A stretch of 64,000 bases of DNA from Bacteroidales bacterium (GTDB lineage Bacteria; Bacteroidota; Bacteroidia; Bacteroidales; JAADJA01): positions 1-64,000 of the forward strand of contig JAIOZL010000019.1 in NCBI GenBank assembly GCA_021740645.1, in the 5' to 3' direction. Every line of letters starts with the position of its first letter. Positions within the stretch are counted from its first letter, which is position 1. A program made the translations under genes and the position numbers. The notes beneath the pieces were generated by a model, which was not told the DNA's origin, searched no databases, and worked only from the letters and a program-made list of their open reading frames with translations. Below, in pieces: positions 19,447-48,194 of this stretch.

Positions 19447-19561
19447 TTTTCATCGGATATTAGTAAAGAAGAAACCCAAAAGAATCGATACATTTTATTT
19501 ATGTATTGAATAAATCTAATATCTAAAACTAAGTTTTTATGAAAGCGTGTAATCCCATATT

Positions 19562-19605
<44 letters not shown>

Positions 19606-19655
19606 ACAAACCAGGTTTTAATTCAATTGCAATTAATCAATTAAAACCTGAAAAA

Positions 19656-20276
19656 ATGAAGGAAAAGATAAACCTAATGATTGCCGACAACCACCCATTG
19701 ATGGTAGATGGGATAATTGCAGCATTAAAAGATGAAACCAATATCAATATTGTGGGTTCAGCAATTAACGGGCAACAGCTATTAAATGAAATTCCCACAT
19801 TAAATCCCGAAATTGTTCTGTTGGATATTAAGATGCCCATATTGGACGGGCTTGAAACGGCGAAACAGTTAAAAACCTTATACCCACATATTAAGTGCAT
19901 TATTATTTCCAGCTTTAACAACAGTGGATTTGTAAGGAAAGCAATTCAATGTGGATGCGCGGGCTATTTGCTTAAAGACTGCGAAAAACCGGAATTGGTA
20001 AAGGCCATTAAAACAGTTTATGACGGGGGTTTGTATTTTAACCCTAAAAACGGCAGGGGATTGGTCCACGATATGGAACCGGCCACTTTATCGGGCAGGG
20101 AGCTGGAAATTTTAAAACTCATTGCAACCGAAAACTGCAGCCGCACCATTGCCCAAAAACTAAACATAACCCCCAACACGGTAAAAACCCACCGCGAACG
20201 TTTAATGATAAAAGCAGGGGTAAAAAACACACCAGGCTTGGTTTACTGGGCCATGAAAAACAACCATATTGATTGA
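19656..20276 (+). CDS. orphan NarL/LuxR-type response regulator
   Basis: This 206-residue transcription factor starts at ATG 19656. The frame stays open upstream to an ATG at 19539 through an AG repeat that would encode an Arg-Glu run; the family normally begins at the receiver, so the later start is favoured. The receiver has its acidic residue (D11) and phospho-acceptor D57 in VLLDIKMP, plus a LLKDC lysine. The C-terminal LuxR helix-turn-helix reads LSGRELEILKLIA, then RTIAQKLNITPNTVKTHRERL. No histidine kinase is adjacent. Tandem hairpins follow immediately and two T9SS cargo genes lie downstream; whether it controls them is unknown. Confidence 0.85.
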   Translation: MKEKINLMIADNHPLMVDGIIAALKDETNINIVGSAINGQQLLNEIPTLNPEIVLLDIKMPILDGLETAKQLKTLYPHIKCIIISSFNNSGFVRKAIQCGCAGYLLKDCEKPELVKAIKTVYDGGLYFNPKNGRGLVHDMEPATLSGRELEILKLIATENCSRTIAQKLNITPNTVKTHRERLMIKAGVKNTPGLVYWAMKNNHID

Positions 20277-20484: not shown

Positions 20485-21744
20485 ATGAAATATAAATATT
20501 TGCTTTTTAGTTGGGTTTTCATTTTATCATTTTCAACAAATGCACAGGATTACTGGGAAGATGTTTTAACAGGAATTGATTCAACATTTGCCAGGAGCAT
20601 GTATATCAGTTCAAATGGGGATATTTATCTTGGAATGAACGGTTTTAGTTACCCGGGCGGAATATACCGATCAAGTGACAATGCCGCTACGTGGCAATAC
20701 CTCGGGTTAGGTGATTTTCCTGTTTATGCAGTGGAGGTTTGTCCGAATGGTGACATCATTGCCGGGGTTTATCATGGTATGTATAAATCAACAGATAATG
20801 GTGAAACCTGGTATGAGGTATATTTTGAGATATTAAATGTATCAGTTATCAAATCATTGGCGAATGGTTATGTTTTTGCAGGCGGCGGAGGGAATTTGCA
20901 TGGGATATTAAGGTCAACCGATTTTGGTGAAACCTGGGACACTTGTCATGTTTTTACCAATTATGGGCAGGAAAACCTTATGGCACTTGCAGTTTCTGCT
21001 GAAGGGCATATTTGGGCAGGCACCCATAATTTTTTTGGAGTGGGCAGTATATGGTATACTACCGATATGGGCGATACATGGACCATGATGGACACACCCT
21101 GTATTTACAATGATGCTTTTGCGCTTGCATTTCACCCACAGGGCGACCTGTTTGTTGGTTTTTTTGGAGAGGGGTTATATAGGTATAATTTTAGCACCCT
21201 GGAGTGGACAGCGATGTATTATCCAGTTGTTTCACCTAATACAATATTATTTGTTGGCAATAATAAAATTTTTGCAGGATTAGACGATTACCCGAATTAT
21301 TTCCCGGGAATTATATATTCAGATGATGGTGGACAAAATTTTGAGATGCTAAATAGCGGGATAAATAATGGCAATGGAGTTACAATTTATAACCTTTTTC
21401 ATCATCCGGACAATTTGGTATATACCCAAGGTTTGGGAGTTTACCGGAGTATACAACCTGTATTTACCGGAACAAAAGAGCAGTCATTGCCTCAAATTGT
21501 TCAATCTTTCAACTACCCTAACCCATTTAAAGATAAAACATCCCTTACATGGGATAATTCAACAGATGATGAGTTTGTAAAAATTTCTCTTATTGATGAA
21601 ATGGGAAAAATCCTTTTTCAAAAAAATGTAAAAAACTCAGGCAGGTATAGTATTGATCTCACTTCCATTGACAGGGGTGTATATTTTTATTCAATAAGTG
21701 AAAAAAGCCAAATTCACACAGGGAAAATGGTATTGGTAAAGTAA
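20485..21744 (+). CDS. secreted Asp-box (BNR) repeat protein with T9SS type-A sorting domain
   Basis: This 419-residue exported protein has a signal peptide ending near TNAQ. The central part is a beta-propeller built from sialidase-type Asp-box repeats: SSDNAATW, STDNGETW, STDFGETW, TTDMGDTW and SDDGGQNF. The final 85 residues are a type-A C-terminal sorting domain, with YPNPFKDKT, then I-S-L-I-D-E-M-G-K and RGVYFYSI, ending KMVLVK. It should be exported through the type IX system and displayed or released at the cell surface. No enzymatic residues of sialidases are evident, so binding rather than catalysis is more likely. Confidence 0.85.
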   Translation: MKYKYLLFSWVFILSFSTNAQDYWEDVLTGIDSTFARSMYISSNGDIYLGMNGFSYPGGIYRSSDNAATWQYLGLGDFPVYAVEVCPNGDIIAGVYHGMYKSTDNGETWYEVYFEILNVSVIKSLANGYVFAGGGGNLHGILRSTDFGETWDTCHVFTNYGQENLMALAVSAEGHIWAGTHNFFGVGSIWYTTDMGDTWTMMDTPCIYNDAFALAFHPQGDLFVGFFGEGLYRYNFSTLEWTAMYYPVVSPNTILFVGNNKIFAGLDDYPNYFPGIIYSDDGGQNFEMLNSGINNGNGVTIYNLFHHPDNLVYTQGLGVYRSIQPVFTGTKEQSLPQIVQSFNYPNPFKDKTSLTWDNSTDDEFVKISLIDEMGKILFQKNVKNSGRYSIDLTSIDRGVYFYSISEKSQIHTGKMVLVK

Positions 21745-31477: not shown

Positions 31478-31987
31478 TTAATTGACATTTATTCCGTCGC
31501 CGTCTTTATCTTTTTTCTTTTTGGCGTCTTCTTTCATTTTGTCTCCACATTTACCTTCGCCACATTTGTGCTCGGTTGACTTGCTATCCATTTTTGCATC
31601 TGTTTTAACATCTGATTTTGCATCTGCTTTTACGTCTGCTTTTTTTTCTTCACCACATTTGCCTTCACCGCATTTTTGGTCTTTCGTTTTCATGTCAGCT
31701 GCTTTCATATCTCCAGACTTAGCATCTGCTTTTTTAGCGTCAACAGCTTTAGCATCTTTTGTTTTGGCATCTTTGGCATTTTCACCGCAGCTTATTTCAA
31801 TTGCCCTGATGTCAGTTGAAGCATTATGAAGTAATTCAGCCCTGAGCTCTCCTCCTGATCCAAGTTCAGAATATTTGAAAGTTTCGGTGGCACTTGCATT
31901 CAAAGAGCCAAGTCCAAATACTGATCCGGCAATTATGGTTCCGGATAAAATAATTTTTTTTACTGAGTTTTTTTGTTTATCATTCAT
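31478..31987 (-). CDS. HvfA/bufferin-like metal-binding RiPP precursor
   Basis: This 169-residue exported peptide has a signal peptide of about 33 residues (hydrophobic core IILSGTIIAGSVFGLG, cleavage near ASA). The mature part has five cysteines: C67, C106, C111, C142 and C147. The last four form two KCGEGKCG units, each with one EGKCG motif (108-112 and 144-148), the modification site used by HvfB/HvfC-type enzymes. The rest is low-complexity Lys/Asp/Ala (KDAK, ADAK and similar). The tail has a D-K-D-G-D-G calcium-loop-like stretch. A matching maturase and partner follow. Predicted role: periplasmic sequestration of copper or a related metal. Confidence 0.85.
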   Translation of the reverse strand: MNDKQKNSVKKIILSGTIIAGSVFGLGSLNASATETFKYSELGSGGELRAELLHNASTDIRAIEISCGENAKDAKTKDAKAVDAKKADAKSGDMKAADMKTKDQKCGEGKCGEEKKADVKADAKSDVKTDAKMDSKSTEHKCGEGKCGDKMKEDAKKKKDKDGDGINVN

Positions 31988-32107
31988 GGTATAAAGTTTT
32001 ATTTATGTTTTCATGGGCTTAGTCGAGAGGCAATTTTTTACCTTACAAAAAATACCCTGCTATTTAGTATAATTATAAACAAGCTGGATGAGATTAAGTT
32101 TGATAAA

Positions 32108-32134
32108 TAAAAAAAGCCGCGATAAATCGCGGCT
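32108..32134 (-). terminator. intrinsic terminator after the sigma/anti-sigma genes
   Basis: On the minus strand AGCCGCGAT, two bases, ATCGCGGCT form a nine-pair stem followed by a T run. It ends the regulatory transcript, so the precursor gene needs its own promoter in 31988-32107, plausibly the target of the sigma factor. Confidence 0.85.
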
Positions 32135-32158
32135 CCATAAAGGGCAATATCTTATATT

Positions 32159-32404
32159 TTATTTAGAGATTTCTTCCACGATTCTCATTTTTGACTCCGT
32201 TGGTAGTTTAGTGTGCGTGTGTTGATCTATATGCGTTACTTTTTCATCGATAAACGCATTTTGCTTGGCAAACAGGGCACAAAACTTACACATCGCAAGG
32301 TGCATTTTCAACCTGAATTTATCGTACCACGAAAATTTTTCAAATTTCGCTTTAACCACCATTTGCGTGGCTTCCTCACAACTTATCATCATACCTTTCT
32401 TCAT
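32159..32404 (-). CDS. zf-HC2-like anti-sigma factor (small, soluble)
   Basis: This 81-residue protein carries the zinc-finger signature of anti-sigma factors: ISCEEATQMVVKA, then MHLAMCKFCALF with H-x3-C-x2-C. It lacks a membrane segment, so it is probably a cytosolic metal- or redox-sensing inhibitor. It starts three bases after the stop of the ECF sigma gene, the usual place for its cognate anti-sigma. Loss of zinc or oxidation of the Cys pair could release the sigma factor; that is known for related proteins and inferred here. Confidence 0.8.
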   Translation of the reverse strand: MKKGMMISCEEATQMVVKAKFEKFSWYDKFRLKMHLAMCKFCALFAKQNAFIDEKVTHIDQHTHTKLPTESKMRIVEEISK

Positions 32405-32407
32405 GAT

Positions 32408-32977
32408 TTATACATTTATCCAATTTATTTCCAAACACTTTCTGAGCTGCAATTTTGCCCTGTGAATAATAACCCAATAGTTCGACGCAGTGATTTGAAG
32501 TTCCTTACATATCTCGGTTGTATCCACATCTTCAAGGTGTTTTAGCACAAACGCCATCCGTTGTAAATCATTCAACCCGGTTAAACATTTCTGTAAAACC
32601 ACATAAAATTCCTCCTGATTGAGGGATTGGTCGGCACTAAAATCTACAGCCTGAGGTCTTTGTTCTTTTCTCCAATGACCCTTAGTGTTAAAAAAATCTT
32701 CCGTTGATGCCAATTGGTCAATGCTCTCTTTTTTGTATTCCCTGACTTTTTTACGATAATGGTCAATGATTTTATTCTTCAAAATAGCAATGAGCCAGGT
32801 GCTTGCCTTACTTTTACCTTCAAAGGAAGCATAGTTTCTCAATGCCGAGATAAAGGTTTCCTGAACAAGGTCCTCGGCAATATGCTCATCGTTTACCCTT
32901 GTAATGGCAAAATTGAAAAGGTAATCAGCATGTTGGTTAAAAAGCGACGCTATTTCAGATTTGATGTCTAAAGCCAT
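32408..32977 (-). CDS. ECF RNA polymerase sigma factor
   Basis: This protein is 189 residues from the ATG at 32977; the frame continues upstream only to a TTG. Region 2 is visible as FNFAITRVNDEHIAEDLVQETF and ASTWLIAILKNKIIDHYRKK, split here by other residues, and region 4 as LNDLQRMAFVLKHLE followed by ICKELQITASNYWVIIHRAKL. The NYWVxxHRA form of region 4 is typical of ECF groups paired with zf-HC2 anti-sigma factors. A -7 box (32983-32990) sits so near the ATG that the transcript would be almost leaderless. It likely drives the RiPP genes downstream. Confidence 0.88.
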   Translation of the reverse strand: MALDIKSEIASLFNQHADYLFNFAITRVNDEHIAEDLVQETFISALRNYASFEGKSKASTWLIAILKNKIIDHYRKKVREYKKESIDQLASTEDFFNTKGHWRKEQRPQAVDFSADQSLNQEEFYVVLQKCLTGLNDLQRMAFVLKHLEDVDTTEICKELQITASNYWVIIHRAKLQLRKCLEINWINV

Positions 32978-32982
32978 AGGCC

Positions 32983-32990
32983 CAAAGTTA
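32983..32990 (-). promoter_or_regulatory. candidate -7 box for the ECF sigma gene
   Basis: TAACTTTG on the minus strand ends six bases before the ATG at 32977. If used, it gives an almost leaderless mRNA. No TTG is present at the normal upstream distance, so activity is uncertain. Confidence 0.4.
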
Positions 32991-33139
32991 GAAATAAATA
33001 TTGGCAATACGGCAGCAAAGAAGAATAATTCTAACAAATTTAAAAAGTGGGAGAAAAGGGTTGTTAGATAATAAATTTATTAAAATTCTCTTGTTATCAA
33101 CAAAATAATTTAGCCGACCAAATTCTTAAGGGAAATCCT

Positions 33140-33147
33140 TATTTTTG
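33140..33147 (+). promoter_or_regulatory. candidate -7 box for pyrH
   Basis: TATTTTTG fits TAnnTTTG and lies 26 bases before the pyrH start. No TTG at the consensus distance. Confidence 0.45.
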
Positions 33148-33172
33148 AAATCAATAATGTAATCAAGAAAGT

Positions 33173-33880
33173 ATGAAATATAAACGCATCTTACTAAAAC
33201 TTAGTGGTGAAGCTTTGATGGGAGACAAACAATATGGGATTGATCCCACCCGACTGAATAACTATGCCAAAGAAATTAAAGAGGTGGTTGACTTGGGAAC
33301 ACAAGTTGGAATTGTCATTGGCGGGGGGAATATATTCCGCGGACTTCAGGGAAGTGCAGAAGGGATGGACCGGGTGCAGGGTGATTATATGGGCATGATG
33401 GCTACCATAATTAATAGCATGGCCATTCAATCTGAGCTTGAAAAAGTAGGCGTTGGAGCGGTGTTGTTAACTGGATTTCAAATTGGGCCTGTGTCTGAAT
33501 TGATGAGCCGAAGAAGGGCCATCACCTGTCTGAATGAAGGGAAAGTGGTCATTATAGGAGGAGGGACAGGTAATCCCTACTTTACTACGGATACAGCATC
33601 GGCACTTCGGGGAATAGAAATTGAAGCCGATGTGTATTTAAAAGGTACCCGCGTGGATGGAGTATATACTGCAGACCCAGAAAAGGATTCTTCGGCTACC
33701 AAATACAAAAGCCTGACTTTCGCCGAAGCCTATGAAAAGAAATTGAAGATAATGGATTTAACTGCCTTTACGATGTGCCAGGAAAACAATTTATCCATTT
33801 TAGTGTTTGACATGAATCAAAAGGGAAACCTGAAAAAAGTGGTTGAAGGGGAAGAAATCGGAACATTGATTAAGAACTAA
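33173..33880 (+). CDS. pyrH: UMP kinase
   Basis: This hexameric bacterial kinase converts UMP to UDP with ATP. The 235 residues show the amino-acid-kinase fold: KRILLKLSGEALMG, then IGGGNIFRG, GDYMGMMATIINSMAI, and the GGGTGNPYFTTDTASALR block that binds phosphates. KGTRVDGVYTADP near the end is standard. It precedes frr, as in many bacteria, but with a 130-base gap and a separate promoter-like box before frr. Confidence 0.97.
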   Translation: MKYKRILLKLSGEALMGDKQYGIDPTRLNNYAKEIKEVVDLGTQVGIVIGGGNIFRGLQGSAEGMDRVQGDYMGMMATIINSMAIQSELEKVGVGAVLLTGFQIGPVSELMSRRRAITCLNEGKVVIIGGGTGNPYFTTDTASALRGIEIEADVYLKGTRVDGVYTADPEKDSSATKYKSLTFAEAYEKKLKIMDLTAFTMCQENNLSILVFDMNQKGNLKKVVEGEEIGTLIKN

Positions 33881-37455: not shown

Positions 37456-38283
37456 ATGGCAAATATTACTGCAGCAGAAGTTAATAAATTAAGAAAAATG
37501 ACAGGTGCAGGCATGATGGACTGCAAAAATGCATTGGTTGAATCGGAAGGCGATTTTGACAAAGCAATTGATATTCTGCGTAAAAAAGGACAGAAAGTAG
37601 CAAATAAACGTGCGGATAAAGAAGCCAACGAAGGCATCGTATTAGCCCGTACTTCTTCAGATAATACTTTTGGTGGTGTATTTAAATTAAGTTGTGAAAC
37701 CGACTTCGTGGCTAAAAATGATGAGTTTGTAGGTTTTGCAAATTCACTTATGGATCTCATTCTTGATGTTCAACCCGAATCTCTGGATGCACTTAAAGCC
37801 CTTAAAATTAATGGCCGCACTGTGGAAGAGAATGTGACCGATATGGTTGGCAAAACTGGTGAAAAAATGGAACTTGCCAGCTACGAATTTATTAAAGCCG
37901 AAAGTGTTGCTGCCTATAATCATATGGGAAACAAATTAGCTACAGTACTTGGCTTAAGCCAAAATACAGGTTCAGATGAAGGCCATCAGTTGGCTATGCA
38001 GGTTGCTGCCATGAACCCTGTTGCTGTTGACAAGGACGATGTGGCACAGGAAATTATTGACAAAGAGATTGAAATTGGCATGGATCAGGCAAGACAGGAA
38101 GGTAAACCGGAAGATATGCTTGAAAAAATAGCCCGTGGAAAACTTAATAAATTCTTTAAAGAAAATACACTGATGAACCAGGATTTTGTAAGGGATTCAA
38201 AAATTACTGTTGCCCAGTTTTTAAAGAATGCTGACAAAGATCTGAAAGTTACAGCTTTCAAACGCCTGATGCTTGGATCCTAA
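37456..38283 (+). CDS. tsf: elongation factor Ts
   Basis: This guanine-nucleotide exchange factor for EF-Tu is 275 residues long. Its N-terminus carries the UBA-like VNKLRKMTGAGMMDCKNAL segment, followed by the SCETDFVAKNDEFVGFA block that inserts into EF-Tu and the dimerisation region. The last 51 codons including the stop (38131-38283) have a second copy at 47517-47669 with 15 differences over 153 bases. The intact gene may therefore have acquired its 3' end from inserted DNA. A terminator follows. Confidence 0.96.
   Translation: MANITAAEVNKLRKMTGAGMMDCKNALVESEGDFDKAIDILRKKGQKVANKRADKEANEGIVLARTSSDNTFGGVFKLSCETDFVAKNDEFVGFANSLMDLILDVQPESLDALKALKINGRTVEENVTDMVGKTGEKMELASYEFIKAESVAAYNHMGNKLATVLGLSQNTGSDEGHQLAMQVAAMNPVAVDKDDVAQEIIDKEIEIGMDQARQEGKPEDMLEKIARGKLNKFFKENTLMNQDFVRDSKITVAQFLKNADKDLKVTAFKRLMLGS
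38131..38283 (+). repeat. direct repeat, copy 1 (3' end of tsf)
   Basis: This is the 153-base 3' end of the intact tsf gene, repeated in the same orientation at 47517-47669 without gaps. The repeats bound the secreted-protein island. Confidence 0.9.
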
Positions 38284-38328
38284 AAGTAACACCACTAAAT
38301 ATAAAAAAGTTACTTTTTTAGAAATTTA

Positions 38329-38362
38329 AAAATAGCCCTGGATTTTTCCGGGGCTATTTTTT
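38329..38362 (+). terminator. intrinsic terminator after intact tsf
   Basis: AATAGCCC plus GG pairs with CC plus GGGCTATT (one G-U), with a six-base loop and six T. A different terminator follows the tsf 3' copy at 47.7 kb. Confidence 0.82.
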
Positions 38363-39137
38363 GTACCCTGAAGCAAATTCCTCTATATTTTCCAAAATAT
38401 ATCTTAAGATTAGTGCCTTAAATATAACAGGCATTAGACCTTAGCCAACAGCCAAATGACATCAAAATGAAAAAAGACTGAATCAAGGGTAAATAACTGC
38501 AACTTTTAGTTGAAAAAAATGAATAAGTATTAAATCAATCTTTTTAAAATGCCTATAGTGAAACATAGCTAAATATTGGATACCTAAAGAAATAATTTGA
38601 ATTTGACGAATTCTCCAATGTTTTTTATATTATTTTATAATTGCTCAATCAATTTCTGCCCTTAAAAACTTTACAGACAATTGGGAATCTTATATGCTTA
38701 GAACATACCCCTGTACAGCATAGCTTTTTCCCATGGGCTGCTATTAATTCAATATGTTAGTTAAACACATTTTTTTCAATAAGTATTGAGCTCGATTTAA
38801 ATTGTCAGAAAAAATAAATAGTTCCCATCTAAACCGTTTTCTTTTCAAAACAGTAAGTAAGTTCTGTTTCTTCCATAATAATTGTCAGATTTCATCATTG
38901 AAATATTTAGTCTGAGTCAAAATTATTACTTAAAGTTTTATATCTGCCAGAATATGGAATTTCAACTACCAGATTATCTGTATCGTAAAGATCTTTCTGG
39001 TAGAATTATGGGATGAATTATGTGTTCTGAGTTTGTAATCTTGTTGATAAATTTTTGTTCTTTTCAATCTTTATTGTTAATTTAGAAACCAATATATAAT
39101 AATCTATTTTTTTTATTCACAGGTAATTATTTTCAAA
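38363..39137. other. AT-rich spacer at the left side of the island, no gene recognised
   Basis: This stretch of about 775 bases has very low GC and no credible open frame on either strand. It contains one interrupted inverted repeat: CTACCAGA at 38966-38973 and TCTGGTAG at 38996-39003, with inner ATCT/AGAT. No integrase remnant, tRNA or promoter of clear quality was seen. It may hold decayed genes. Confidence 0.5.
38966..39003. repeat. interrupted inverted repeat in the island spacer
   Basis: CTACCAGA and TCTGGTAG are complementary arms (eight pairs) around 22 bases that include a further ATCT/AGAT pair. It could be a DNA-binding site or RNA hairpin about 135 bases before the first island gene. 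Confidence 0.45.
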
Positions 39138-39692
39138 ATGAAACATGTAATTTATTTATTATCTATGGCCATATTAATGGCCATAGGATCATCATGTTAT
39201 GCCGACGTTTACTATGTACAAAATGTTGACACTACGATTAACAATCCGCAACCGGTAGAGGGAATAAATTACTTTCTTCTTGATATCAATGATGACGATA
39301 TAATCGATTATAAAATAGGAGCAAGATATTTTTTAAGTCACGAAGGTATTCATTCCCCATACGATGCTTTTGAAGTATTTGTTTGGGGGGAAAGTAATAA
39401 TACTGTAAGTGCAGGTCCTTACCAATTAGATGATTCAATTGATAGCACACTTTATTATGAACGGAGTGATGTTTTAGTCGGCCGTTTGCCTGAATATGGA
39501 ATCATTGGTGCTTGGGCTGTTAGTCAGGATTTCATAGATAGTTATTTGTTTGTCGGTTTAAGAGTAGAAATTAATAGTCAATTCCATTATGGTTGGTTAG
39601 AAATTAAGACCGATGGACTTTCGTTTACATTAATGAGCTATGCTTTTAATGACCAGGCTGACCAACCCATCATTATCACTCAATCTTATTAA
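39138..39692 (+). CDS. small secreted protein of unknown function
   Basis: This 184-residue exported protein has a signal peptide ending near SSCYA. An acidic loop LDINDDDIIDYKI resembles calcium-binding FG-GAP/dockerin-like turns. The C-terminal part (HYGWLEIKTDG, then LMSYAFNDQADQPIII) resembles a beta-sandwich frequently seen in secreted bacterial proteins that end in sorting tails, but no T9SS tail is present here. It is the first gene of the island, 20 bases before the GH5-like gene, and probably in one transcript with it. Confidence 0.6.
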   Translation: MKHVIYLLSMAILMAIGSSCYADVYYVQNVDTTINNPQPVEGINYFLLDINDDDIIDYKIGARYFLSHEGIHSPYDAFEVFVWGESNNTVSAGPYQLDDSIDSTLYYERSDVLVGRLPEYGIIGAWAVSQDFIDSYLFVGLRVEINSQFHYGWLEIKTDGLSFTLMSYAFNDQADQPIIITQSY

Positions 39693-39712
39693 AAACTTTC
39701 AAGTCTTAAGCC

Positions 39713-42700
39713 ATGAAAACTATAGCTGCCTTACAACAAAACTTTATTATAACATTATGCACTTCAACAATAATCAGTTTAACTGCTTTAGGTCAAACTG
39801 AACAATATATATACATGGATAACGGCAAATTCTATGAAGGATGTGAACAATACTATCCCAAAACCTCGAATTATGCAGTAATTATGATTGAAGATTTAAC
39901 TAACACCTTCCATGTCTCTCCATATAATCAGTACTGTTATAGCAGTAATTATTGTTCAGCCAATGCTTGGGATTATTCATGTGGGACGGATGTAAATGCC
40001 TGGCAAGATCAATTAATAACACACCTTCAAAAAATCGACTCTCTGGGGTTTAATAGTGTAAGGATAATGGGATTGCCGGTAATGGTTGATGAAGATGAAA
40101 ATGCCCGAACTGTCCGATATTATGTTCAGGAGCAGGTTCAATGTTTGGTTAGACAAGACGTAGGGCTGGAATTAAATCCAGATTCATACGAAATTATGGG
40201 TGCTATGATGCAGGAAATTATTGATGTTATCAGAAATAATAATATTAACTTGAAACTTGTAATTTGTTTAGGGCAACACGGTATTGAACATCAAACCCAA
40301 GCTTATTCAGACTACCTTGAGTACATTGGAAATCGGTTTAAAGAAGAACCAATTATCTTTGCCTGGGATTTATACAATGAGCCACGTTACAGCAAATTCC
40401 CCTCCCCAGGTAGTTTTGAAACGGATAAAGTAGAAATTGCAGACATGGTCTATAATTGGTATTGGTCATTAAAAGATAATGATCCCAACCATTTAATTAC
40501 ATTTGGTTCTGTGTTTGCTGATGTTCAAGACTGGGATCCAAATTTATTAACGGTTGATTTTCTATCTTACCATGTCTATTCGAATCGATGGGAAGCAACA
40601 AACTGGGAATTGACACCGGCTTTATATAAATACAACGGATGTTTAAAATATATTAATGAAACTATTGTCAATAACTGGATACTGGGTGAAACCGGATTAC
40701 CCGGAAGCGATAATCCTGGTATCCATCCAATTGTAGGATCTGAAGCTGATCAAGCTATTTTTGCCATAGAAACATTTAAATATTCAAATTGGTATGGATC
40801 ACAAGGATATTCATGGTGGACTTATAAAGAATACAATTGGGCTCCAGATGATACACCAGGGGCAAAAGAAGATTATTTTGGTATCGTATACCGATTAAAC
40901 GACTTACAGGAACATAAACTGATTGGAGATGAAATCGTGTCATTAATACCTCAAGGAGACTGTCCGGAATGCGTAGATCCTCCCGGCAACATTTATTATG
41001 ACCCCTATCAATACGGATTTTATGAACACTCGGGGTATGTTTATGATATTAATAGCAATCCATTGAAAAACGCATTAATTTTTGGAGCCAAACAAGTTAT
41101 TTATGATGATTTTAAATATAAGGTGGCTTATCCATTTTATACTTTCACAGATGAAAATGGTTATTTTAAGGTTTATGCCAGCGCTGCAGTAGGAAACGAA
41201 ATAGATTATTATTGGTGGGTAAGCTATTCTGGGATGAAGACCTCCAATATAGTTTGGGATCCTCAAGTTTACACACATGAGTACTACCTTGAATCTATTC
41301 CTACAAGCTCATTACCACCTCCTTTAGTTTATAACAACGAACTAATAATAAATGAGGGTCAGTCAGTAACATGGGATCATGCTATGGTGCCTTATGAAAC
41401 TTCAATTATTATTAAAGGAGGTGCAAAACTTTCAATTAAAGACATGGTATATTTAAAACCCGGTGCTAAAATTACAGTTGAGAATGGGGGTGAACTTGAA
41501 GTAGATGGTGGGGTCTTATCTGGACACTGTTTATGGGAAGGAGTTGAAGTTTGGGGCAATTCAAATTCACCATTATCTGAGGATCAAGGATTAGTTGTAC
41601 TTAAAAATGGAGCAGTTATCGAGAACTCTTTGAATGGCATTTATGCAGCTAGACCAGGTCCATTTCCTTGGTATGCAAATTATTATGGAGGAATAATCAA
41701 GGCTTTCGATGCAGAATTCATAAACAATAGAGTTTCCTTGAAAATTCCCGAATACAAATATGAGAATAGATCCGTATTTAAAAACTGTCTTTTTGAAATA
41801 AATGAAAATAATCTGTTTCAGGGTGAGTTCGAAAATATGGTATTATTGAGTTCGGTTAAGGGAGTGGACTTTGTGAGTTGTGATTTTTTAAATAGTCTGT
41901 CGAATTATTGTGGGATTGGTATAAAGGTAGTCAATAGCAGTTTCAGTGTGTTAGGAGAATGTTATGAACAGGACCCATCTGGCGATTGTCTGTCCTGGGA
42001 TGGAGGAGAGGGTGAATTCCATAATTTGCATTATGGAATCTATACAACTGGGATTGGATTTTTGGATCCGGTTCAAATCAAGCATACAAAATTTATGAAT
42101 AACCTTAACGGGTGCTATATCAGCGCTATGGACAATGTTACGATACAATATAATAAATTTGAAACCCATAATAGTATAATTGGAGGGTATGGATTATATT
42201 TGGATGAATGTACAGCGTTTACGGTTGATTCAAATGATTTTTACCAGGGGACAGCCAGTGGGATAGGTATGGTTATAAATAACTCAGGCCCGGAATCAAA
42301 CAGAATTTACCTAAATTATTTTGAGGAAATGAATTATGCCATCATAGCCCAGAATGAAAATCGGGCACTCGACGGTACCGGCCTGGTACTGAAGTGCAAC
42401 GAATATATCGGCAACACCTTCGACCAGGTGGTGACCTGGAAAGAACCCTTTTTAACCGGCTATGCCGGCATCGCCGCCGCCCAGGGCGCCAACCTCGCCA
42501 CCCCCGACGCCCCCGCAGGAAACCACTTCAGCCAAACCGGCTCCACCGCTTTTTCCGACTTTTACAATGAGGCCAATGATGTGACTTACTATTATCATGA
42601 TGGTTATCCTTTTGAACCATTAATACCACAATATCGTTCGGAAAGTGTAACAATTGAACCAGTTTTTGCTCAATGGAATGACGATAGTTGCCCACCTTCC

Positions 42701-43882
42701 GACCAGGGTAGCGGAGGAGGTTTAGGCGACACCGAAGAGATGAAATCGCTGATCACCCTTTCGGGACAAAAAGCCGATTCGGTGATTGCCATCATACAAA
42801 TCCTGAAAGACGGGGGCAGTACCGAAGCGCTCAAATGGGAGGTGGACATGAGCACCCCGCCCGAAACCTACACGGTTTACAACGAACTGATGAACCATTC
42901 GCCCTACATCTCCGATACCGTGATGGGGTCGGCCATCGAAAAGGAGGAGGTGCTGCCCAATGTGATGATCCGCGATGTGATGGTGGCCAATCCGCACAAT
43001 GCAAAGGATGAGAGCCTGCTGGAGAAGATCGGTGAGCGCAGCGATCCCATGCCCGAATACATGATCGCACAGATATTGCAGGGGCAGAGCCTCGTATCGG
43101 CCTTCGAAAGCCTGCAATCCCAAAAGGCTTATTACAAACAGCAGCGTTCCCTCGCCCTGAATGCCCTGATCAAACTGTACCTGTCCGACACCCTCGATCC
43201 CGCGGCTTCAAAGGACAGTTTGAAGGTGTTGCTGGAAAATGAGAACAGCAAAGGGGCCAAATACAGACTGGCGTTTTTGAGCATGGAGCAGGGTGCATGG
43301 AGCATGGGGCAGCAGGTATTGAATGAGATTCCCCAGCAATTCAACCTTTCGGAGGAGGAACTGGCAATCCATCAGCAATATACCGCTTTTTACAACCTGT
43401 TGTCAGGGCTGTTGCAGCAGGGAAAATCAGTGAGTGAGGTTGACAGCACGCAAATTGAGTTGCTGCTCAACATTGAGGCGATGCAGGCCGGGAAACCTTC
43501 GGTGTATGCCCGGAATGTATTGCTGGCCCTGGAACAGATCGAATACGAGGAGCCGATCCTGCTGCCCGACCTGTTTAAATCAACGGCCGTTCAGGAAGAG
43601 CGCCAACGGATCATGCAATCGTTGGATGAACACCATTATGTAAGCCTGTTCCCCAACCCGGCCGGTGCTTACCTGATCATTGAACACAAGCTGGAAATGG
43701 AATCACAAAAAGTCGTGGTCAAAATTAACAATATGAAAGGTGAATGTATCAAACAGGTTGAACTGACCGGCAAACAAAACCAGCAGACAGTGGATATTCA
43801 TTCCTTAAAACCGGGAATATACACGGCTACGATTGTTGCAGATCAACAAGAGCTGGAAACCGTTAAGTTTACGAAAAAATAG
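39713..43882 (+). CDS. GH5-like glycoside hydrolase fused to beta-helix, T9SS type-A
   Basis: This 1389-residue exported protein has an N-terminal TIM-barrel (about 80-420) that resembles GH5 cellulase/mannanase-type hydrolases: acid/base in WDLYNEP (E223) and nucleophile in WILGETGLP (E326), plus aromatic residues in YSWWTYKEYNW. A carboxypeptidase-regulatory-like domain follows (about 435-525), then a right-handed beta-helix (about 540-880), a long helical region (about 990-1300) and a type-A sorting domain (LFPNPAGAYLII, then PGIYTATIVA). The part from about 42.36 to 43.7 kb alternates between markedly GC-rich and AT-rich DNA, suggesting recombination with related genes. Confidence 0.8.
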   Translation: MKTIAALQQNFIITLCTSTIISLTALGQTEQYIYMDNGKFYEGCEQYYPKTSNYAVIMIEDLTNTFHVSPYNQYCYSSNYCSANAWDYSCGTDVNAWQDQLITHLQKIDSLGFNSVRIMGLPVMVDEDENARTVRYYVQEQVQCLVRQDVGLELNPDSYEIMGAMMQEIIDVIRNNNINLKLVICLGQHGIEHQTQAYSDYLEYIGNRFKEEPIIFAWDLYNEPRYSKFPSPGSFETDKVEIADMVYNWYWSLKDNDPNHLITFGSVFADVQDWDPNLLTVDFLSYHVYSNRWEATNWELTPALYKYNGCLKYINETIVNNWILGETGLPGSDNPGIHPIVGSEADQAIFAIETFKYSNWYGSQGYSWWTYKEYNWAPDDTPGAKEDYFGIVYRLNDLQEHKLIGDEIVSLIPQGDCPECVDPPGNIYYDPYQYGFYEHSGYVYDINSNPLKNALIFGAKQVIYDDFKYKVAYPFYTFTDENGYFKVYASAAVGNEIDYYWWVSYSGMKTSNIVWDPQVYTHEYYLESIPTSSLPPPLVYNNELIINEGQSVTWDHAMVPYETSIIIKGGAKLSIKDMVYLKPGAKITVENGGELEVDGGVLSGHCLWEGVEVWGNSNSPLSEDQGLVVLKNGAVIENSLNGIYAARPGPFPWYANYYGGIIKAFDAEFINNRVSLKIPEYKYENRSVFKNCLFEINENNLFQGEFENMVLLSSVKGVDFVSCDFLNSLSNYCGIGIKVVNSSFSVLGECYEQDPSGDCLSWDGGEGEFHNLHYGIYTTGIGFLDPVQIKHTKFMNNLNGCYISAMDNVTIQYNKFETHNSIIGGYGLYLDECTAFTVDSNDFYQGTASGIGMVINNSGPESNRIYLNYFEEMNYAIIAQNENRALDGTGLVLKCNEYIGNTFDQVVTWKEPFLTGYAGIAAAQGANLATPDAPAGNHFSQTGSTAFSDFYNEANDVTYYYHDGYPFEPLIPQYRSESVTIEPVFAQWNDDSCPPSDQGSGGGLGDTEEMKSLITLSGQKADSVIAIIQILKDGGSTEALKWEVDMSTPPETYTVYNELMNHSPYISDTVMGSAIEKEEVLPNVMIRDVMVANPHNAKDESLLEKIGERSDPMPEYMIAQILQGQSLVSAFESLQSQKAYYKQQRSLALNALIKLYLSDTLDPAASKDSLKVLLENENSKGAKYRLAFLSMEQGAWSMGQQVLNEIPQQFNLSEEELAIHQQYTAFYNLLSGLLQQGKSVSEVDSTQIELLLNIEAMQAGKPSVYARNVLLALEQIEYEEPILLPDLFKSTAVQEERQRIMQSLDEHHYVSLFPNPAGAYLIIEHKLEMESQKVVVKINNMKGECIKQVELTGKQNQQTVDIHSLKPGIYTATIVADQQELETVKFTKK

Positions 43883-43907
43883 AAAAATCAAGGTTAATTG
43901 AATACGA

Positions 43908-45521
43908 ATGAGAACGAAAAATATCATATTGGCCCTGTTGATTGTAGTGATTTATCAATGTTTATATGCACAAGTTTGGCCAAAATATTATAATAAAACA
44001 AATTACGATACTTATTCCGACGATGTATTAGAGGCTTATGATAAAAGTTATTTTATTTGTGGAAATTTCAATACTTATAACGGAAGTGAGGCAAAACAAT
44101 GGACATGGCTAATAAAGACAGATGTAAATGGAGAAGTACTGTGGGATAAGGTCATTGAAGGTGGAGATGAATACATGCGGACGGCCGCAATTGAATCCAC
44201 AATGGATGGAGGGATATTGCTTTGTGGACTTATTTGGACCGAAATTGGAAATTTTGATCCATATGCAATGAAGTTGAATGCTTGTGGTGAAAAGGAGTGG
44301 TGCACCATATTTGCAAGTAGTACACAAATCAATCCATGGGCACAAGATATAAAGGAAACTCAGTCGGGAGATATTATAATGCTTGTAAATCAATATGGTG
44401 AGGATAATATTGAAGATATGGATTTGTTTAAATTAAATTCTATTGGTGAATTACAATGGAAGGGAACTTATTGTAGTGGAAATGTATATCCTGAATCCCT
44501 AGCTCCAATTGGCAGAAATTTAATAGTTACACAAGCAAATAATTATTTAATAGCAGGGGAGGTTTATTGGGCAGATCCCTGGAATCCTGGAGGACCCAAA
44601 GGTATAAGATCAGTTTTTGTTGAAGTTGATGAAGATGGTAATGAAAATTGGGTTTTGCCCTTTGGATTGCAAGATTCAATATATGGACAAGGGAAAAATG
44701 TCCTTGAGATAGATAGTAATAGATTTATCGGTGTTTCAAATAAGTGGCCTGTTGAAACTTTGGAAACAGTATTGATTGAATTTAATTCACAAGGAATAAT
44801 GACACAATATATCATCCTTGATAACCAACTAATTAGTACTGAAATTTCAAAAGGAACACCTCTTAATATTGAGATAACAGACACATTGTATATCATTGGT
44901 GGGTTGTATGGTGTACCCAACGCAGGTTATTCATCAGAAATAGTATTGGATACTAACATCTTCACAAATCCAATCGTATTCAATTTTTATCAACATTACG
45001 AAGAAAAAGAGCCATATTCAATGCTAAAAACAACAAACAATAAAATACTTTCTAATTCAACATTTGATGGATCCGATAAATGGGAAATCGCTCTCTCCAA
45101 GCTCAACCTCAACCTGGAGTACGATACCCTCGATCCCGGCAACTACACCTACGACAGCCTGTGCACTACCCCCGGCCTGCCGCAAAGCGGGTTTATCTTC
45201 CTGGATGATTGCGACATCATCACCGGGGTGGATATTCCTTCGCCGGAGGAGTATTATGCAAGTCTGGAGAAAATACCTATCACTGCTTTTCCCAACCCGG
45301 CAAAGGATAAAGTTACTTTTGAGTTTCAAAACACAGAGCATCATCAAGACATGGAACTCAAGTGTTTTAATATTTTCGGAAAGTTGGTGCATGAGGAAAA
45401 GGTTTATCAATATCAGGGAAAAAGCATACTTAATATTAGGTATTGGCAAAGCGGAATTTATATAGCCATGATTTATTCCGATGGGGTGGTAGTTGGGAAA
45501 GCGAAATTTGTTGTACAATAG
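43908..45521 (+). CDS. secreted repeat protein with T9SS type-A sorting domain
   Basis: This 537-residue exported protein has a signal peptide ending near LYAQ. The middle contains repeated K-T/L-D/N-x-x-G-E-x-x-W segments (for example IKTDVNGEVLWDK, FKLNSIGELQWKG) typical of beta-propeller-like repeats. The last 80 residues form a type-A sorting domain (AFPNPAKDK, then F-N-I-F-G-K and SGIYIAMIYSDG). The stretch 45085-45260 is clearly richer in GC than its flanks, as in the upstream gene. It starts 25 bases after the GH5-like gene and may share its transcript. Confidence 0.75.
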   Translation: MRTKNIILALLIVVIYQCLYAQVWPKYYNKTNYDTYSDDVLEAYDKSYFICGNFNTYNGSEAKQWTWLIKTDVNGEVLWDKVIEGGDEYMRTAAIESTMDGGILLCGLIWTEIGNFDPYAMKLNACGEKEWCTIFASSTQINPWAQDIKETQSGDIIMLVNQYGEDNIEDMDLFKLNSIGELQWKGTYCSGNVYPESLAPIGRNLIVTQANNYLIAGEVYWADPWNPGGPKGIRSVFVEVDEDGNENWVLPFGLQDSIYGQGKNVLEIDSNRFIGVSNKWPVETLETVLIEFNSQGIMTQYIILDNQLISTEISKGTPLNIEITDTLYIIGGLYGVPNAGYSSEIVLDTNIFTNPIVFNFYQHYEEKEPYSMLKTTNNKILSNSTFDGSDKWEIALSKLNLNLEYDTLDPGNYTYDSLCTTPGLPQSGFIFLDDCDIITGVDIPSPEEYYASLEKIPITAFPNPAKDKVTFEFQNTEHHQDMELKCFNIFGKLVHEEKVYQYQGKSILNIRYWQSGIYIAMIYSDGVVVGKAKFVVQ

Positions 45522-45613
45522 GAAACATCCTCAATCATTGTAATAATCCTGATCCTAATTGATAATGAATTTGAAAACTGCAATCAATTTAGACTTTTAA
45601 TTCGATTAATCGT

Positions 45614-45621
45614 TATATTTG
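45614..45621 (+). promoter_or_regulatory. candidate -7 box for the last island gene
   Basis: TATATTTG matches TAnnTTTG and lies six bases before the ATG at 45628, so this mRNA would be almost leaderless. Confidence 0.45.
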
Positions 45622-45627
45622 TCTGTC

Positions 45628-47139
45628 ATGAAAAAACCAATTTCAATTTTATTTCTTTTGTGTATTAGCGTTGCTTTTTCCCAGCAACCGATGTATTTCA
45701 ACAAAACCTATAGTAATATAAATTATTATGCATATGGGCGTTCAATCCTTGAAAAAGAAGGAAGTTACATTGGCTACGGTTATACAAATGAGCCCGAAAA
45801 CGAAGATAAAATATTGTTCTTTGAAATCGATTCCCTCGGAGAAATTGTAAAATGGGAGCCCTTTCCTGAACAAGAGGCCTACATTTTAATTGTTGGCGGT
45901 GTTATGAAGCAGTCCGTAAATGGTCAATATTGTCTTGCCTACTCTAAATGGTATGGTGGAAATATAAAAACCGCACTTCGAGGGATGGATCCGGAACTAA
46001 ATTCCCTTTGGGCTCAAGTTTATGGATTAGGATTACAGACTATTGGTAAAAATTATTGTCAGACCTCCGATCTGGGATATGCAATATGTGGTAGTTATTA
46101 TAATGACTGGAATTATTCTGCACAAATCTTACTGATTAAAACAGATAGCCTGGGGAATCAACAATGGTATAAAGCTTTTGGTACCCCTTCATATTTCGAA
46201 CACGGATCTATTATTATTCAAACTCCTGATGGTGGGTACCTTATTGGTGGATATATTTATGATGTGGGTGTTGGGTCTTTCCACGATGCTTTGGTAATGA
46301 GAATTGACAGTTCAGGTAACCTTCAATGGACAAAGCAGTATGGTAGTCCAAATGTGGATGATGACATTGCTTTGGTTGCAATGGCTACAGATGGTAATTA
46401 TCTGTTGGCAACCGTTTATGGGGAATGGACCATCAATTCTGACTCAAGGGCTGGAAAAATTTATTTAGCCAAAATCGATAAAGACAATGGTGAGATAATA
46501 TGGGAACAAAAGATCGGTGAGGCAAGGAAAGACAGGTACATTAAATCGTTAAAGAGAATAAAGGATAACCATTACATGGCTGCAGGATGGTCGCTTAAGG
46601 TCGATACATCGGCGCCCAACCAGGAAGTATATGCTGGATGGGTCCTGAAAGTGGATGGTGATGCTGAAACCGTTTGGTACAGGGATTATTATTACTATAC
46701 TGAGCAGAATGATGTCAATAATTTATATGACGTAACACCAACCCGCGATAATGGCTACATTGCAATAGGTACAGCCCATTCTGAATCCGATACCCCTCAA
46801 TTATGGATCATCAAACTGGACAGCATGCTCTGCGATACACCGGGATGTACAACAGTAGTTCATAATAATGAACTTCAGTTTGACAATAGAAAAGAGATAA
46901 AAGTCTGGCCTAATCCTTTTTCAGAAAGCTTTAATGTCCAGGTTAGGAGAAAAGAAACAAAAGGCGATGGAATACTTAGGGTTTTCAACTCTCAGGGCAC
47001 AAAGATGGAAGAACAGATACTGCCTGAGTCAAATGAGATAATAAACATAAATTCTTCATATTGGCCCAGGGGTTTGTATTATATTCAATTTGAAAATTCG
47101 GGAACATTCATTGGAGCATCCAAAATACTAAAGCAATAG
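45628..47139 (+). CDS. secreted repeat protein with T9SS type-A sorting domain, paralogue of upstream gene
   Basis: This 503-residue exported protein starts at the ATG at 45628 (the frame opens at a TTG nine bases earlier). The signal peptide ends near AFSQ. It has the same repeat type as the upstream protein: IKTDSLGNQQWYKAFG, then MRIDSSGNLQWTKQYG and AKIDKDNGEIIWEQK, each followed by TPDGGYLIGGY-like strands. A type-A sorting domain closes it (VWPNPFSESF, then RGLYYIQFENSG, ending SKILKQ). It is the last gene before the palindromic repeats and the tsf fragment. Confidence 0.78.
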   Translation: MKKPISILFLLCISVAFSQQPMYFNKTYSNINYYAYGRSILEKEGSYIGYGYTNEPENEDKILFFEIDSLGEIVKWEPFPEQEAYILIVGGVMKQSVNGQYCLAYSKWYGGNIKTALRGMDPELNSLWAQVYGLGLQTIGKNYCQTSDLGYAICGSYYNDWNYSAQILLIKTDSLGNQQWYKAFGTPSYFEHGSIIIQTPDGGYLIGGYIYDVGVGSFHDALVMRIDSSGNLQWTKQYGSPNVDDDIALVAMATDGNYLLATVYGEWTINSDSRAGKIYLAKIDKDNGEIIWEQKIGEARKDRYIKSLKRIKDNHYMAAGWSLKVDTSAPNQEVYAGWVLKVDGDAETVWYRDYYYYTEQNDVNNLYDVTPTRDNGYIAIGTAHSESDTPQLWIIKLDSMLCDTPGCTTVVHNNELQFDNRKEIKVWPNPFSESFNVQVRRKETKGDGILRVFNSQGTKMEEQILPESNEIININSSYWPRGLYYIQFENSGTFIGASKILKQ

Positions 47140-47516
47140 AGTTGATATTAGTCCCCCCTAACGTCCTCCCACTGAAATGTCAGGATAGGCACTGGATCGG
47201 ATGGACTAGCCTGCGCACTCCTCCTAACCTCCCCTGAAGGGGAGGGACTGGCCTTCGAATAATGTGGGAAATGGAATCCATTTAGAAATTTACTTAATTT
47301 TAATCCCGGATGCAGCTTCTCCCCTTCAGGGGAGACGGGAGAGGGGCAAAAGGTGATAACCCGCTACGCACTTCCAAAGTGCTTAGCGGGCGAAACTACC
47401 CGACTCATCCTCCCTTCCCGTTTCAGGTGTACAGGCCCGAAGTAAAATTTATGTCTATGAAAAACTTTGAGCCTCTCCCCTCAAAGTAGTAGTAGAATTT
47501 AGCTTTGGCAAGAAGC
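47140..47516. repeat. REP-like palindrome cluster at the right side of the island
   Basis: Two 16-base palindromic cores, CTCCCCTGAAGGGGAG (within 47228-47245) and its reverse complement (within 47318-47335), lie about 90 bases apart in opposite orientation. A third structure at 47360-47390 has stems CCCGCTA/TAGCGGG and GCACTT/AAGTGC around a three-base loop. No open frame is credible here. The arrangement resembles REP/BIME units that are spread by RAYT transposases in other bacteria. Confidence 0.7.
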
Positions 47517-47669
47517 GCCCGTGGAAAACTCAATAAATTTTTCAAAGAAAGTACATTGATGAACCAGGAATTTGTAAGGGTTTCAAAAATTACGGTTGCT
47601 CAATTTTTAAAGAATACTGACAAGGACCTGAAAGTTACAGGTTTCAAACGCCTGATGCTTGGATCATAA
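47517..47669 (+). pseudogene. tsf 3'-end fragment (direct repeat, copy 2)
   Basis: This is an ungapped match to the last 51 codons including the stop of tsf, with 15 base differences and five amino-acid differences. It begins abruptly after unrelated sequence, has no start codon or ribosome site, and is followed by a terminator like an operon end. It is probably the displaced original 3' end of tsf or an attachment-site-like duplication. Confidence 0.9.
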
Positions 47670-47688
47670 AAGAGGTACAATTAAATAT

Positions 47689-47717
47689 AAAAAAGGCTGC
47701 AAATGCAGCCCTTTTTT
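47689..47717. terminator. bidirectional terminator after the tsf fragment and the yqeY-like gene
   Basis: GGCTGC and GCAGCC form a six-pair stem around AAAT, flanked by A6 and T6 runs, so it works on both strands. It ends the minus-strand dcw/yqeY unit and was probably the original tsf terminator before the island inserted. Confidence 0.85.
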
Positions 47718-47741
47718 GTTTATTATGAAAATTTAATTGAA

Positions 47742-48194
47742 CTAATTGCCCAAGCTCTCCCTGACAATAAGTGAGATCATTTTATTGTCAGCCTTACCGG
47801 ATAATTGTTTTGTGGCAATCCCCATCACCTTTCCCATGTCTTTCATCGACGAGGCCCCACTTTCTTCTATAATTCTCTTTATAATACCTCTGACCTCAGA
47901 TTCATTTAATTGCTCAGGCAAATATTTTTCGATAACCGCTAACTGAAAAAGTTCTTCTTCAGCCAGGTCGGTTCTGTTTTGTGTTTGGTATAATTCTGCT
48001 GCATCCCTCCTCTGCTTGACAAGCTTTTTTAAAATGCTCATTTCAACTTCTTCAGAAACTGCCCCCTCTGAGCCTTTATCAGTTTTAGCTAATAAAATGG
48101 CCGCTTTCACTGCCCGAAGAGCTACAAGCTTCTCTTTCTCTTTTTCGAGCATGGCTTTTTTGATGTCGCTGTTTATCTCTTGCTCAAGACTCAT
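47742..48194 (-). CDS. GatB/YqeY-domain protein
   Basis: This 150-residue cytosolic protein has the YqeY fold: SLEQEINSDIKKAMLEKEKEKL at the start (split by others), R-A-V-K-A-A-I-L-L-A, LVKQRRDAAELY and KYLPEQLNESEV, ending with the small domain MGKVMGIATKQL-SGKADNKMIS. It is homologous to the tail domain of GatB, which binds tRNA in the amidotransferase; the role of the free-standing protein is unknown. In Bacteroidota it often follows ftsZ, as here. Confidence 0.9.
   Translation of the reverse strand: MSLEQEINSDIKKAMLEKEKEKLVALRAVKAAILLAKTDKGSEGAVSEEVEMSILKKLVKQRRDAAELYQTQNRTDLAEEELFQLAVIEKYLPEQLNESEVRGIIKRIIEESGASSMKDMGKVMGIATKQLSGKADNKMISLIVRESLGN

Follow-up and report, generated by a model that had tools for sequence, protein, structure and literature searches.

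The 3' end of tsf, the gene for EF-Ts, is present twice in direct orientation within 64,000 nucleotides of a Bacteroidales genome (GenBank assembly GCA_021740645.1, contig JAIOZL010000019.1, positions 1 to 64,000), a stretch that we call the window. Between the two copies lies an island of four cargo genes (isl1 to isl4), three of which encode type IX secreted proteins. We favor the hypothesis that the island is DNA of a relative that was inserted by one-sided recombination anchored on the tsf 3' end, through a single crossover, and we hold this to be the probable explanation. An earlier note on this DNA, made from the letters alone, had proposed that incoming DNA carrying a tsf 3' end restored tsf and pushed the old end away, and this main inference was probably right.

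The source genome (G000) is 5.06 Mb long in 83 contigs and is listed as 95.8% complete and 5.95% contaminated; the window sits in its contig C34 (82,332 bases) and contains no N. It was compared with 16 further genomes of its genus (17 in all), with 60 genomes for the tsf protein, and with 393 genomes of the order in a search for the tsf end (373 with a match, 5 of this genus).

The duplicated tsf end and its neighbors

37456–38283, + strand: tsf (EF-Ts), complete, its 3' end being copy 1; an open reading frame with protein matches in 58 of the 60 genomes
38131–38309, + strand: copy 1 of the direct repeat, with the last 50 tsf codons, the stop and 26 nt of 3' flank; from repeat searches
38328–38361, + strand: terminator hairpin after copy 1, stem of 15 bp and loop of 4; folds at -22.9 kcal/mol (z -6.4), absent from the pattern scan
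38310–39137, no strand: AT-rich non-coding spacer, 27.2% GC; from composition
47140–47516, no strand: GC-richer (49.1%) intergenic stretch with palindromes and, at its end, the right-hand junction; from repeats and composition
47361–47389, no strand: hairpin CCGCTACGCACTT-CC-AAAGTGCTTAGCGG, found also directly after two isl3-like genes of contig C77 of the same genome; from a sequence search
47517–47695, + strand: copy 2 of the direct repeat, a tsf 3' end, displaced and truncated on its 5' side, plus 26 nt of 3' flank; from repeat and genome searches
47688–47718, no strand: terminator common to copy 2 and the convergent yqeY; folds at -13.8 kcal/mol (z -4.3), also in the pattern scan
47742–48194, - strand: yqeY, most likely the native convergent neighbor of tsf; Pfam YqeY (E 5e-44) and synteny

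The copies are 88.3% identical over 179 nt (BLAST E values of 1e-59 to 1e-61), and a direct-repeat listing of the window gives them as 38124–38309 and 47510–47695 (D1; 87% of 186 nt). The gapless 153-base repeat with 15 differences that the earlier note described is confirmed: 15 of the 150 bases in the final 50 codons are different, TAA is the stop in both, and the homology runs 26 nt further, up to the foot of two unlike terminators. As it had also said, copy 2 is without the rest of tsf, about the first 222 codons, and each copy is followed by a different terminator; both fold, and the pattern scan lists only that of copy 2, with a total of 6 hits that lies below the shuffle mean of 8.6. 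The AT-rich spacer, at 27.2% GC against 38.3% for the window, and the palindromic repeats (among them CTCCCCTGAAGGGGAG at 47229, inverted at 47319) were likewise described correctly. A search of the 5.06-Mb genome with copy 2 gave just the two copies, with no third copy and no match at a distant locus. Because of this, and because the tsf pair is the sole direct repeat of the 82-kb contig that passes a filter of 30–800 nt, 0.3–20 kb apart, at E 1e-5, the repeat is not due to chance.

Synteny in relatives supports an insertion at the tsf 3' end with copy 2 as the displaced native end. Four of the 11 other genomes of the genus that hold both genes (G002, G009, G011, and G013) have convergent tsf and yqeY about 0.1–0.2 kb apart. 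These are the empty sites that had been predicted, running from tsf directly into a terminator and yqeY, and the target that forms long direct repeats around the insert is single in them. Outside the genus the tight order recurs in G021 and G029, 1.6 kb separate the genes in G056, and the stretches of G028, G047, and G055 have no yqeY after tsf. The best named loci by tsf come from uncultured Bacteroidetes and Bacteroidales; among 80 named loci, 8 are tight (49–488 nt, one being G013 again), 3 have 2.0–6.6 kb between the genes, and 69 have no yqeY within the stretch examined. Beyond copy 2 the window continues with yqeY, ftsZ, ftsA, ftsQ, and murC, in the same order as in relatives. When the 3' flanks of the two copies are scored against the tsf flanks of 17 relatives, copy 2 has the better score in 14, ties with copy 1 in 1, and has the poorer score in 2 (G004 and G015); a z of at least 3 is reached by copy 2 in 8 of the 17 and by copy 1 in 1. 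The ancestral order was most likely convergent tsf and yqeY with a gap of 0.1–0.2 kb, and since relatives show this order, copy 2, its terminator, and yqeY are most likely the native parts, displaced by 9.4 kb. Both genes are intact, a terminator stands between copy 2 and yqeY, and no deletion is visible. None of the tsf loci seen has the same island with a single tsf end (in G001, G006, and G007 the contig breaks off inside tsf or no more than 0.5 kb away).

The divergence of the two ends points to their histories. They are identical at 135 of 150 positions, whereas either is identical to any of 14 relatives at 111 of 150 at most; because the copies are nearer to each other than to any of these relatives, the two ends come from a single lineage or from close sister lineages. 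Third codon positions account for 10 of the 15 differences (binomial P 0.0085), with dS at 0.40 and dN at 0.044. A neutral local duplicate predicts 18.4 non-synonymous changes and 5 are seen (P 2e-4), in a test that covers 50 codons and that gene conversion would weaken. We therefore read the copies as two alleles that probably diverged in separate lineages and were then united, and not as a decaying local duplicate. Since they differ in the manner of alleles of two lineages, one tsf end probably came in together with the cargo, as had been proposed. Copy 2 alters one residue (Asp to Val) that all 14 relatives keep, as would be expected once the end is out of use.

The cargo and the variable tsf–yqeY gap

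39138–39692, + strand: isl1, 184 aa, probably secreted (signal-like N-terminus by eye), no match in the Pfam scan
39713–43882, + strand: isl2, a 1389-aa type IX secreted protein with a C-terminal sorting domain; Pfam
43908–45521, + strand: isl3, a 537-aa type IX secreted protein; Pfam
45619–47139, + strand: isl4, a 506-aa type IX secreted protein with beta-propeller-like repeats below the cut-off; Pfam

The claim of four secreted-protein genes stands for isl2, isl3, and isl4, whose products carry the type IX sorting domain, and extends to isl1 by the appearance of its N-terminus. Below the cut-off, isl2 also shows a weak glycosidase-like N-terminal part (Apiosidase) and a beta-helix. Matches to isl2 at E 1e-70 or better occur in 13 of the 17 genomes of the genus, and matches to isl4 at E 1e-50 or better in 12 of the 17, G000 included in both counts; weaker matches, some to the sorting domain only, raise the spread to 15 and 17 genomes, respectively. 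In 15 of 20 fetched stretches an isl2-like gene or fragment is followed by an isl3- or isl4-like gene, in varied neighborhoods. The order isl1-isl2-isl3 recurs in contig C32 of G008, where a homolog of isl1 (36% identical) heads the module, and two paralogs of isl3 (50% and 62% identical) lie in C77 of G000. The island genes have a GC content of 39.0% against 38.3% for the window, and the description of the DNA as foreign in composition was accordingly rejected. Because related modules occur across the genus and the GC content equals that of the window, the cargo appears to be a member of a gene family resident in the genus and not an alien element. Searches for the cargo gave four weak matches on plasmids, all under 30% identity, and no close relative in viral contigs; isl2 matched no solved structure at E 0.01, and Pfam found no recombinase domain in the four island proteins. 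The idea that such modules land only between convergent genes was dropped, as flanking orientations are mixed. The near-perfect 29-nt hairpin of 47361–47389 recurs at 97932–97960 and 100146–100174 of C77 and at about 114.1 kb of C33 in the same genome; with up to 3 substitutions allowed, it is in no examined stretch of another genome.

The earlier note had judged tsf an unusual insertion site, which the relatives contradict: the gap holds other DNA, or the two genes lie apart, in at least 6 of the 11 genomes of the genus with both genes. Other DNA separates tsf from yqeY in G004 (1.3 kb) and G005 (4.6 kb). In G012, G014, G015, and G016 the two genes lie on separate contigs, and the other sequence seen amounts to at least 5.3 kb, so that they are far apart or rearranged; G006, which is not among the six, also has them on separate contigs, with at least 0.9 kb. 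The contents vary: sorting-domain proteins lie in the gap of G005 and next to yqeY in G012, G014, and G015, and the beginning of the G012 gene is seen in G016. Different gene content thus occupies one site between core genes, as in a gene-transfer hotspot. No second tsf end lies beside yqeY in G004, G005, G006 (0.5 kb only), G012, G014, G015, G016, or G056. In the 393 genomes of the order, the tsf end is matched twice only in G000 and in G224, which is listed as 6% contaminated; the fetched stretch of G224 has a tight tsf–yqeY pair with one tsf and does not show where the second match lies. Occupied sites thus recur, yet the scar at tsf is rare. In the text listed by a narrow literature search for tsf as an insertion site in Bacteroidetes, the term elongation factor Ts does not occur.

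Other observations touch this gap and the window. A truncated tyrosine recombinase, its N-terminal part missing (Phage_integrase, E 6.5e-40), lies about 0.3 kb from yqeY in G015 (C191; L147:6854–7306). An AAA_14-type ATPase gene at 18052–19248 of the window has look-alikes, by eye, in the tsf–yqeY gap of G004 (L045:5465–6487) and of G056 (oriented L048, 4083–4463). At 19539–20276 of the window, a response-regulator-like open reading frame has a listed start that crosses an Arg-Glu repeat run, probably a simple-sequence repeat at the gene start. An Rfam scan of the window returned nothing at gathering scores. Gene names were given by eye for tsf, ftsZ, murC, TlpA, LutB, lysS, guaB, and surA and rest on Pfam for yqeY, NmrA-like, S41, and M1.

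Displaced gene ends at other loci

A comparable arrangement lies in contig C165 of G012, where a TlpA-like gene is followed by a truncated isl2-like gene, an isl4-like gene, and then a second copy of the last 14 TlpA codons and stop. This second copy (51 nt, 86%, one indel) abuts a convergent LutB-like gene; G006, G009, and G000 have a tight TlpA-LutB pair. The sister genome G016 has the same left junction of the TlpA insert, and its contigs do not include the right junction. The G012 case was found through its module homolog and not by a blind scan. In C10 of G013, a secreted-protein gene is followed by 7 kb of cargo and then, beside lysS, by a 3' end and terminator like its own. The coding part of this remnant is 82% identical over 60 nt to the end of a second secreted gene at 298977 versus 79% over 67 nt to the gene beside the insert, and the terminator piece is common only to the gene beside the insert.

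In C33 of G000, an NmrA-S41 gene pair is followed by five further genes, the last encoding a secreted M1-type peptidase. The right-hand copy there joins 223 nt from the 5' end of NmrA and the region upstream of it (87%) directly to 40 nt from the 3' end of S41. It appears to have lost the S41 body, and therefore the duplicated segment would once have been kilobases long and decaying by deletion. This duplicate is not a 3'-end attachment site. In C77 of the same genome, a remnant of the 3' end of an isl3-like gene (89347–89413; 80%, 65 nt) contains no gene and faces a gene on the + strand; what is by eye a TetR/ABC-type operon separates it from the intact isl3-like gene, and the remnant may be the relic of a lost module.

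Direct repeats were also sought around other modules. A first batch of 20 stretches was picked for strong module matches; 15 had both flanks and at least five were without one flank. Two of the 15 had a repeat between the flanks, namely the TlpA case and L190, the latter rejected as a displaced end because it is intergenic and contains no gene end. The L190 repeat itself, TGTCATTCCGAA...GAGTGAGGAATC, stands at L190:6991–7040 and 9262–9311 around an isl4-like gene in G010. Nothing convincing came from a second batch of 20, where the repeats lay in paralogs or inside genes; in L199 of this batch a 69-nt piece of an isl4-like gene is repeated. A scan of 130 loci (1.83 Mb) showed one-sided repeats also in L066, L094, and L040. 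A second scan took in 859 kb of G000 (5.06 Mb in all) and 400 kb of G013, together with 400 kb of a control, G316, from another family of the order. Among 592 crude genes of G000, its 3'-end test left three loci after reading (tsf, S41, and isl3-like), with one paralog and one 30-nt repeat set aside; 282 genes of G013 gave two candidates, of which one was read, and 261 genes of G316 gave no displaced 3' end. In C1 of G316, however, the 5' end of the gene at 31702–33414 is duplicated 11 kb upstream (20812–20913 and 31722–31823) with several genes between, a mirror image of the tsf case, and the control has further one-sided repeats. Because of this displaced 5' end in the control, we do not claim a process specific to the genus, and displaced ends are not shown to be special to it.

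Mechanism, rival explanations, and known systems

From the observed repeat, synteny, and allele-like divergence we infer a donor, a circularization, and an order of events. The donor would have been a related bacterium in which tsf was followed by a secreted-protein module. Its DNA, once inside the cell, would have recombined solely by way of the tsf 3' end, and the far end would have been joined without a matching crossover in yqeY, most simply by a single crossover with an end-joined (circularized) fragment. The product would be a complete hybrid tsf, the cargo, and a truncated tsf end beside an untouched terminator and yqeY. Deletion outcomes between tsf and yqeY-ftsZ would presumably be selected against. 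The type IX surface-protein cargo is a passenger, and the duplication is a scar and not a functional part.

Several observations weigh against this hypothesis. A donor was not found, and no tsf in the 60 genomes is more than about 80% identical in protein (76% in a second comparison); import from a sister lineage is thus suggested solely by the divergence of 50 codons. Exact identity between the copies extends over 24 nt at most, a short stretch for a crossover if the homology was not originally longer or closer. The other occupied tsf–yqeY stretches examined contain no second tsf end, and when the window is taken together with the 40 stretches chosen for related modules, only the window and G012 have a displaced end of the gene that precedes the module. 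The conserved order of S41 and NmrA could not be confirmed in relatives, and the control genome from another family has its own mirror-image duplication.

A variant of one-sided recombination is the entry of linear DNA by homology-facilitated illegitimate recombination (HFIR), with a crossover in tsf and the far end joined illegitimately inside the recipient tsf. This would give the same end product at tsf, and the relevant passages of one report propose it for additive modules of the Vibrio cholerae type VI secretion system (T6SS) with displaced old 3' ends (PMC5361080). According to the part of another report that treats such products, however, they generally carry a deletion and not a duplication (PMC3240628). 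No deletion is visible at tsf, and we consider the linear route, which we count within the favored hypothesis, rather unlikely.

Genomic islands and prophages can occupy the 3' ends of protein genes, such as icd, where the insert restores the end and the old end is displaced. By analogy, a tyrosine recombinase could have inserted an element carrying the tsf 3' end as attP, restoring tsf, with later loss of the integrase. The architecture at tsf, restored and displaced in the same way, fits this explanation, as does the truncated integrase near yqeY in G015. The island itself, unlike icd-type islands, has no integrase, and other occupied sites have no second tsf end. The genome has five PF00589 matches, on C50, C2, C44, C15, and C61, and none on C34, C33, or C77. 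The earlier note saw no integrase and held homologous recombination to be as likely as site-specific integration; the evidence supports recombination. A second tsf-end match is confined to two of the 393 genomes, the other displaced ends in the genus involve different genes, and the C33 duplicate includes a gene 5' end and its upstream region. A viral-contig scan for the tsf end gave no relative, and a phage collection held two unannotated records with weak tsf-end matches (42–45% identical). We regard site-specific integration as improbable.

A purely local event, a tandem duplication of the tsf 3' end on the spot with later insertion of other genes between the copies, is more doubtful still. 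In its favor, the copies are each other's closest relatives, and an isl2-like gene end in C82 of G003 is repeated (L183 9255–9694 and 11405–11840; 77%, 441 nt) after one isl4-like gene and before a second, as tandem duplication gives, and probably arose by such duplication inside the module. Against it stand the deficit of non-synonymous differences, which gene conversion could weaken as evidence, and the different terminators of the two 3' flanks. A chimeric contig joining two co-occurring relatives at tsf would likewise put the tsf ends of two lineages on one contig, and the assembly is fragmented and listed as contaminated, but the window is free of N; the genome has no second match to the roughly 115 bases that lead up to the junction, and hence no shared sequence for a misjoin is seen; and similar displaced ends occur in the separate assemblies of G012 and G013, so that we give this account as little credence as local duplication.

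One-sided recombination at tsf could be part of a wider pattern. It is possible, though we think it doubtful, that the type IX modules of the genus (isl2 with an isl3- or isl4-type gene) spread as cassettes without an integrase, anchored on the preceding conserved gene, landing behind the same gene in a new host, and leaving a displaced end. If so, surface-protein repertoires would turn over by one-sided homologous recombination at the ends of housekeeping genes. Clean double crossovers leave no trace, and thus the gain of cargo at hotspots without mobile elements is difficult to observe. A gene end that is displaced and allele-like can be read as a scar that gives the anchor gene, the direction, and the native side. 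One uncultured genus contains a handful of such scars, which suggests that its secreted-protein genes can move through ordinary recombination and not through dedicated elements.

The phenomenon is of a known kind in a new setting. In the relevant passages on Escherichia coli conjugation with one-ended homology, 56 of 60 selected clones carried a partial gene-end duplication; 14 were sequenced (109–950 bp) and ascribed to a single crossover with a shortened circle, and the remaining four were HFIR products with deletions (PMC3240628). The product is the same, a gene, an insert, and a truncated gene end, and the 179 nt at tsf lie inside that size range, although the E. coli case involved a laboratory plasmid and selection, whereas the tsf case is natural and its copies have diverged (PMC3240628). 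The "insertion with long target duplication" of Helicobacter pylori (Nobusato et al. 2000), as described in two later reports, is similarly an insert with a long duplication of the target recognized by comparing related genomes (PMC1643837, PMC3154945). There it often involves restriction-modification genes, whereas here the cargo encodes type IX secreted proteins and the target is the tsf 3' end, 12% diverged. The effector-immunity modules of the V. cholerae T6SS, in the passages that describe them, are likewise anchored upstream, with the old 3' sequence shifted downstream and kept; their anchor is a T6SS cluster region and the kept part an immunity gene, whereas here the end of a housekeeping gene with no evident function is kept (PMC5361080). 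Finally, gene-transfer hotspots without mobile elements are described as recombining at flanking core genes (PMC5635113). The tsf–yqeY site is likewise flanked by core genes, its contents vary in relatives, and the island has no integrase; the hotspot model, as set out there, is a double crossover that should leave no repeat, whereas at tsf one side left a scar (PMC5635113).

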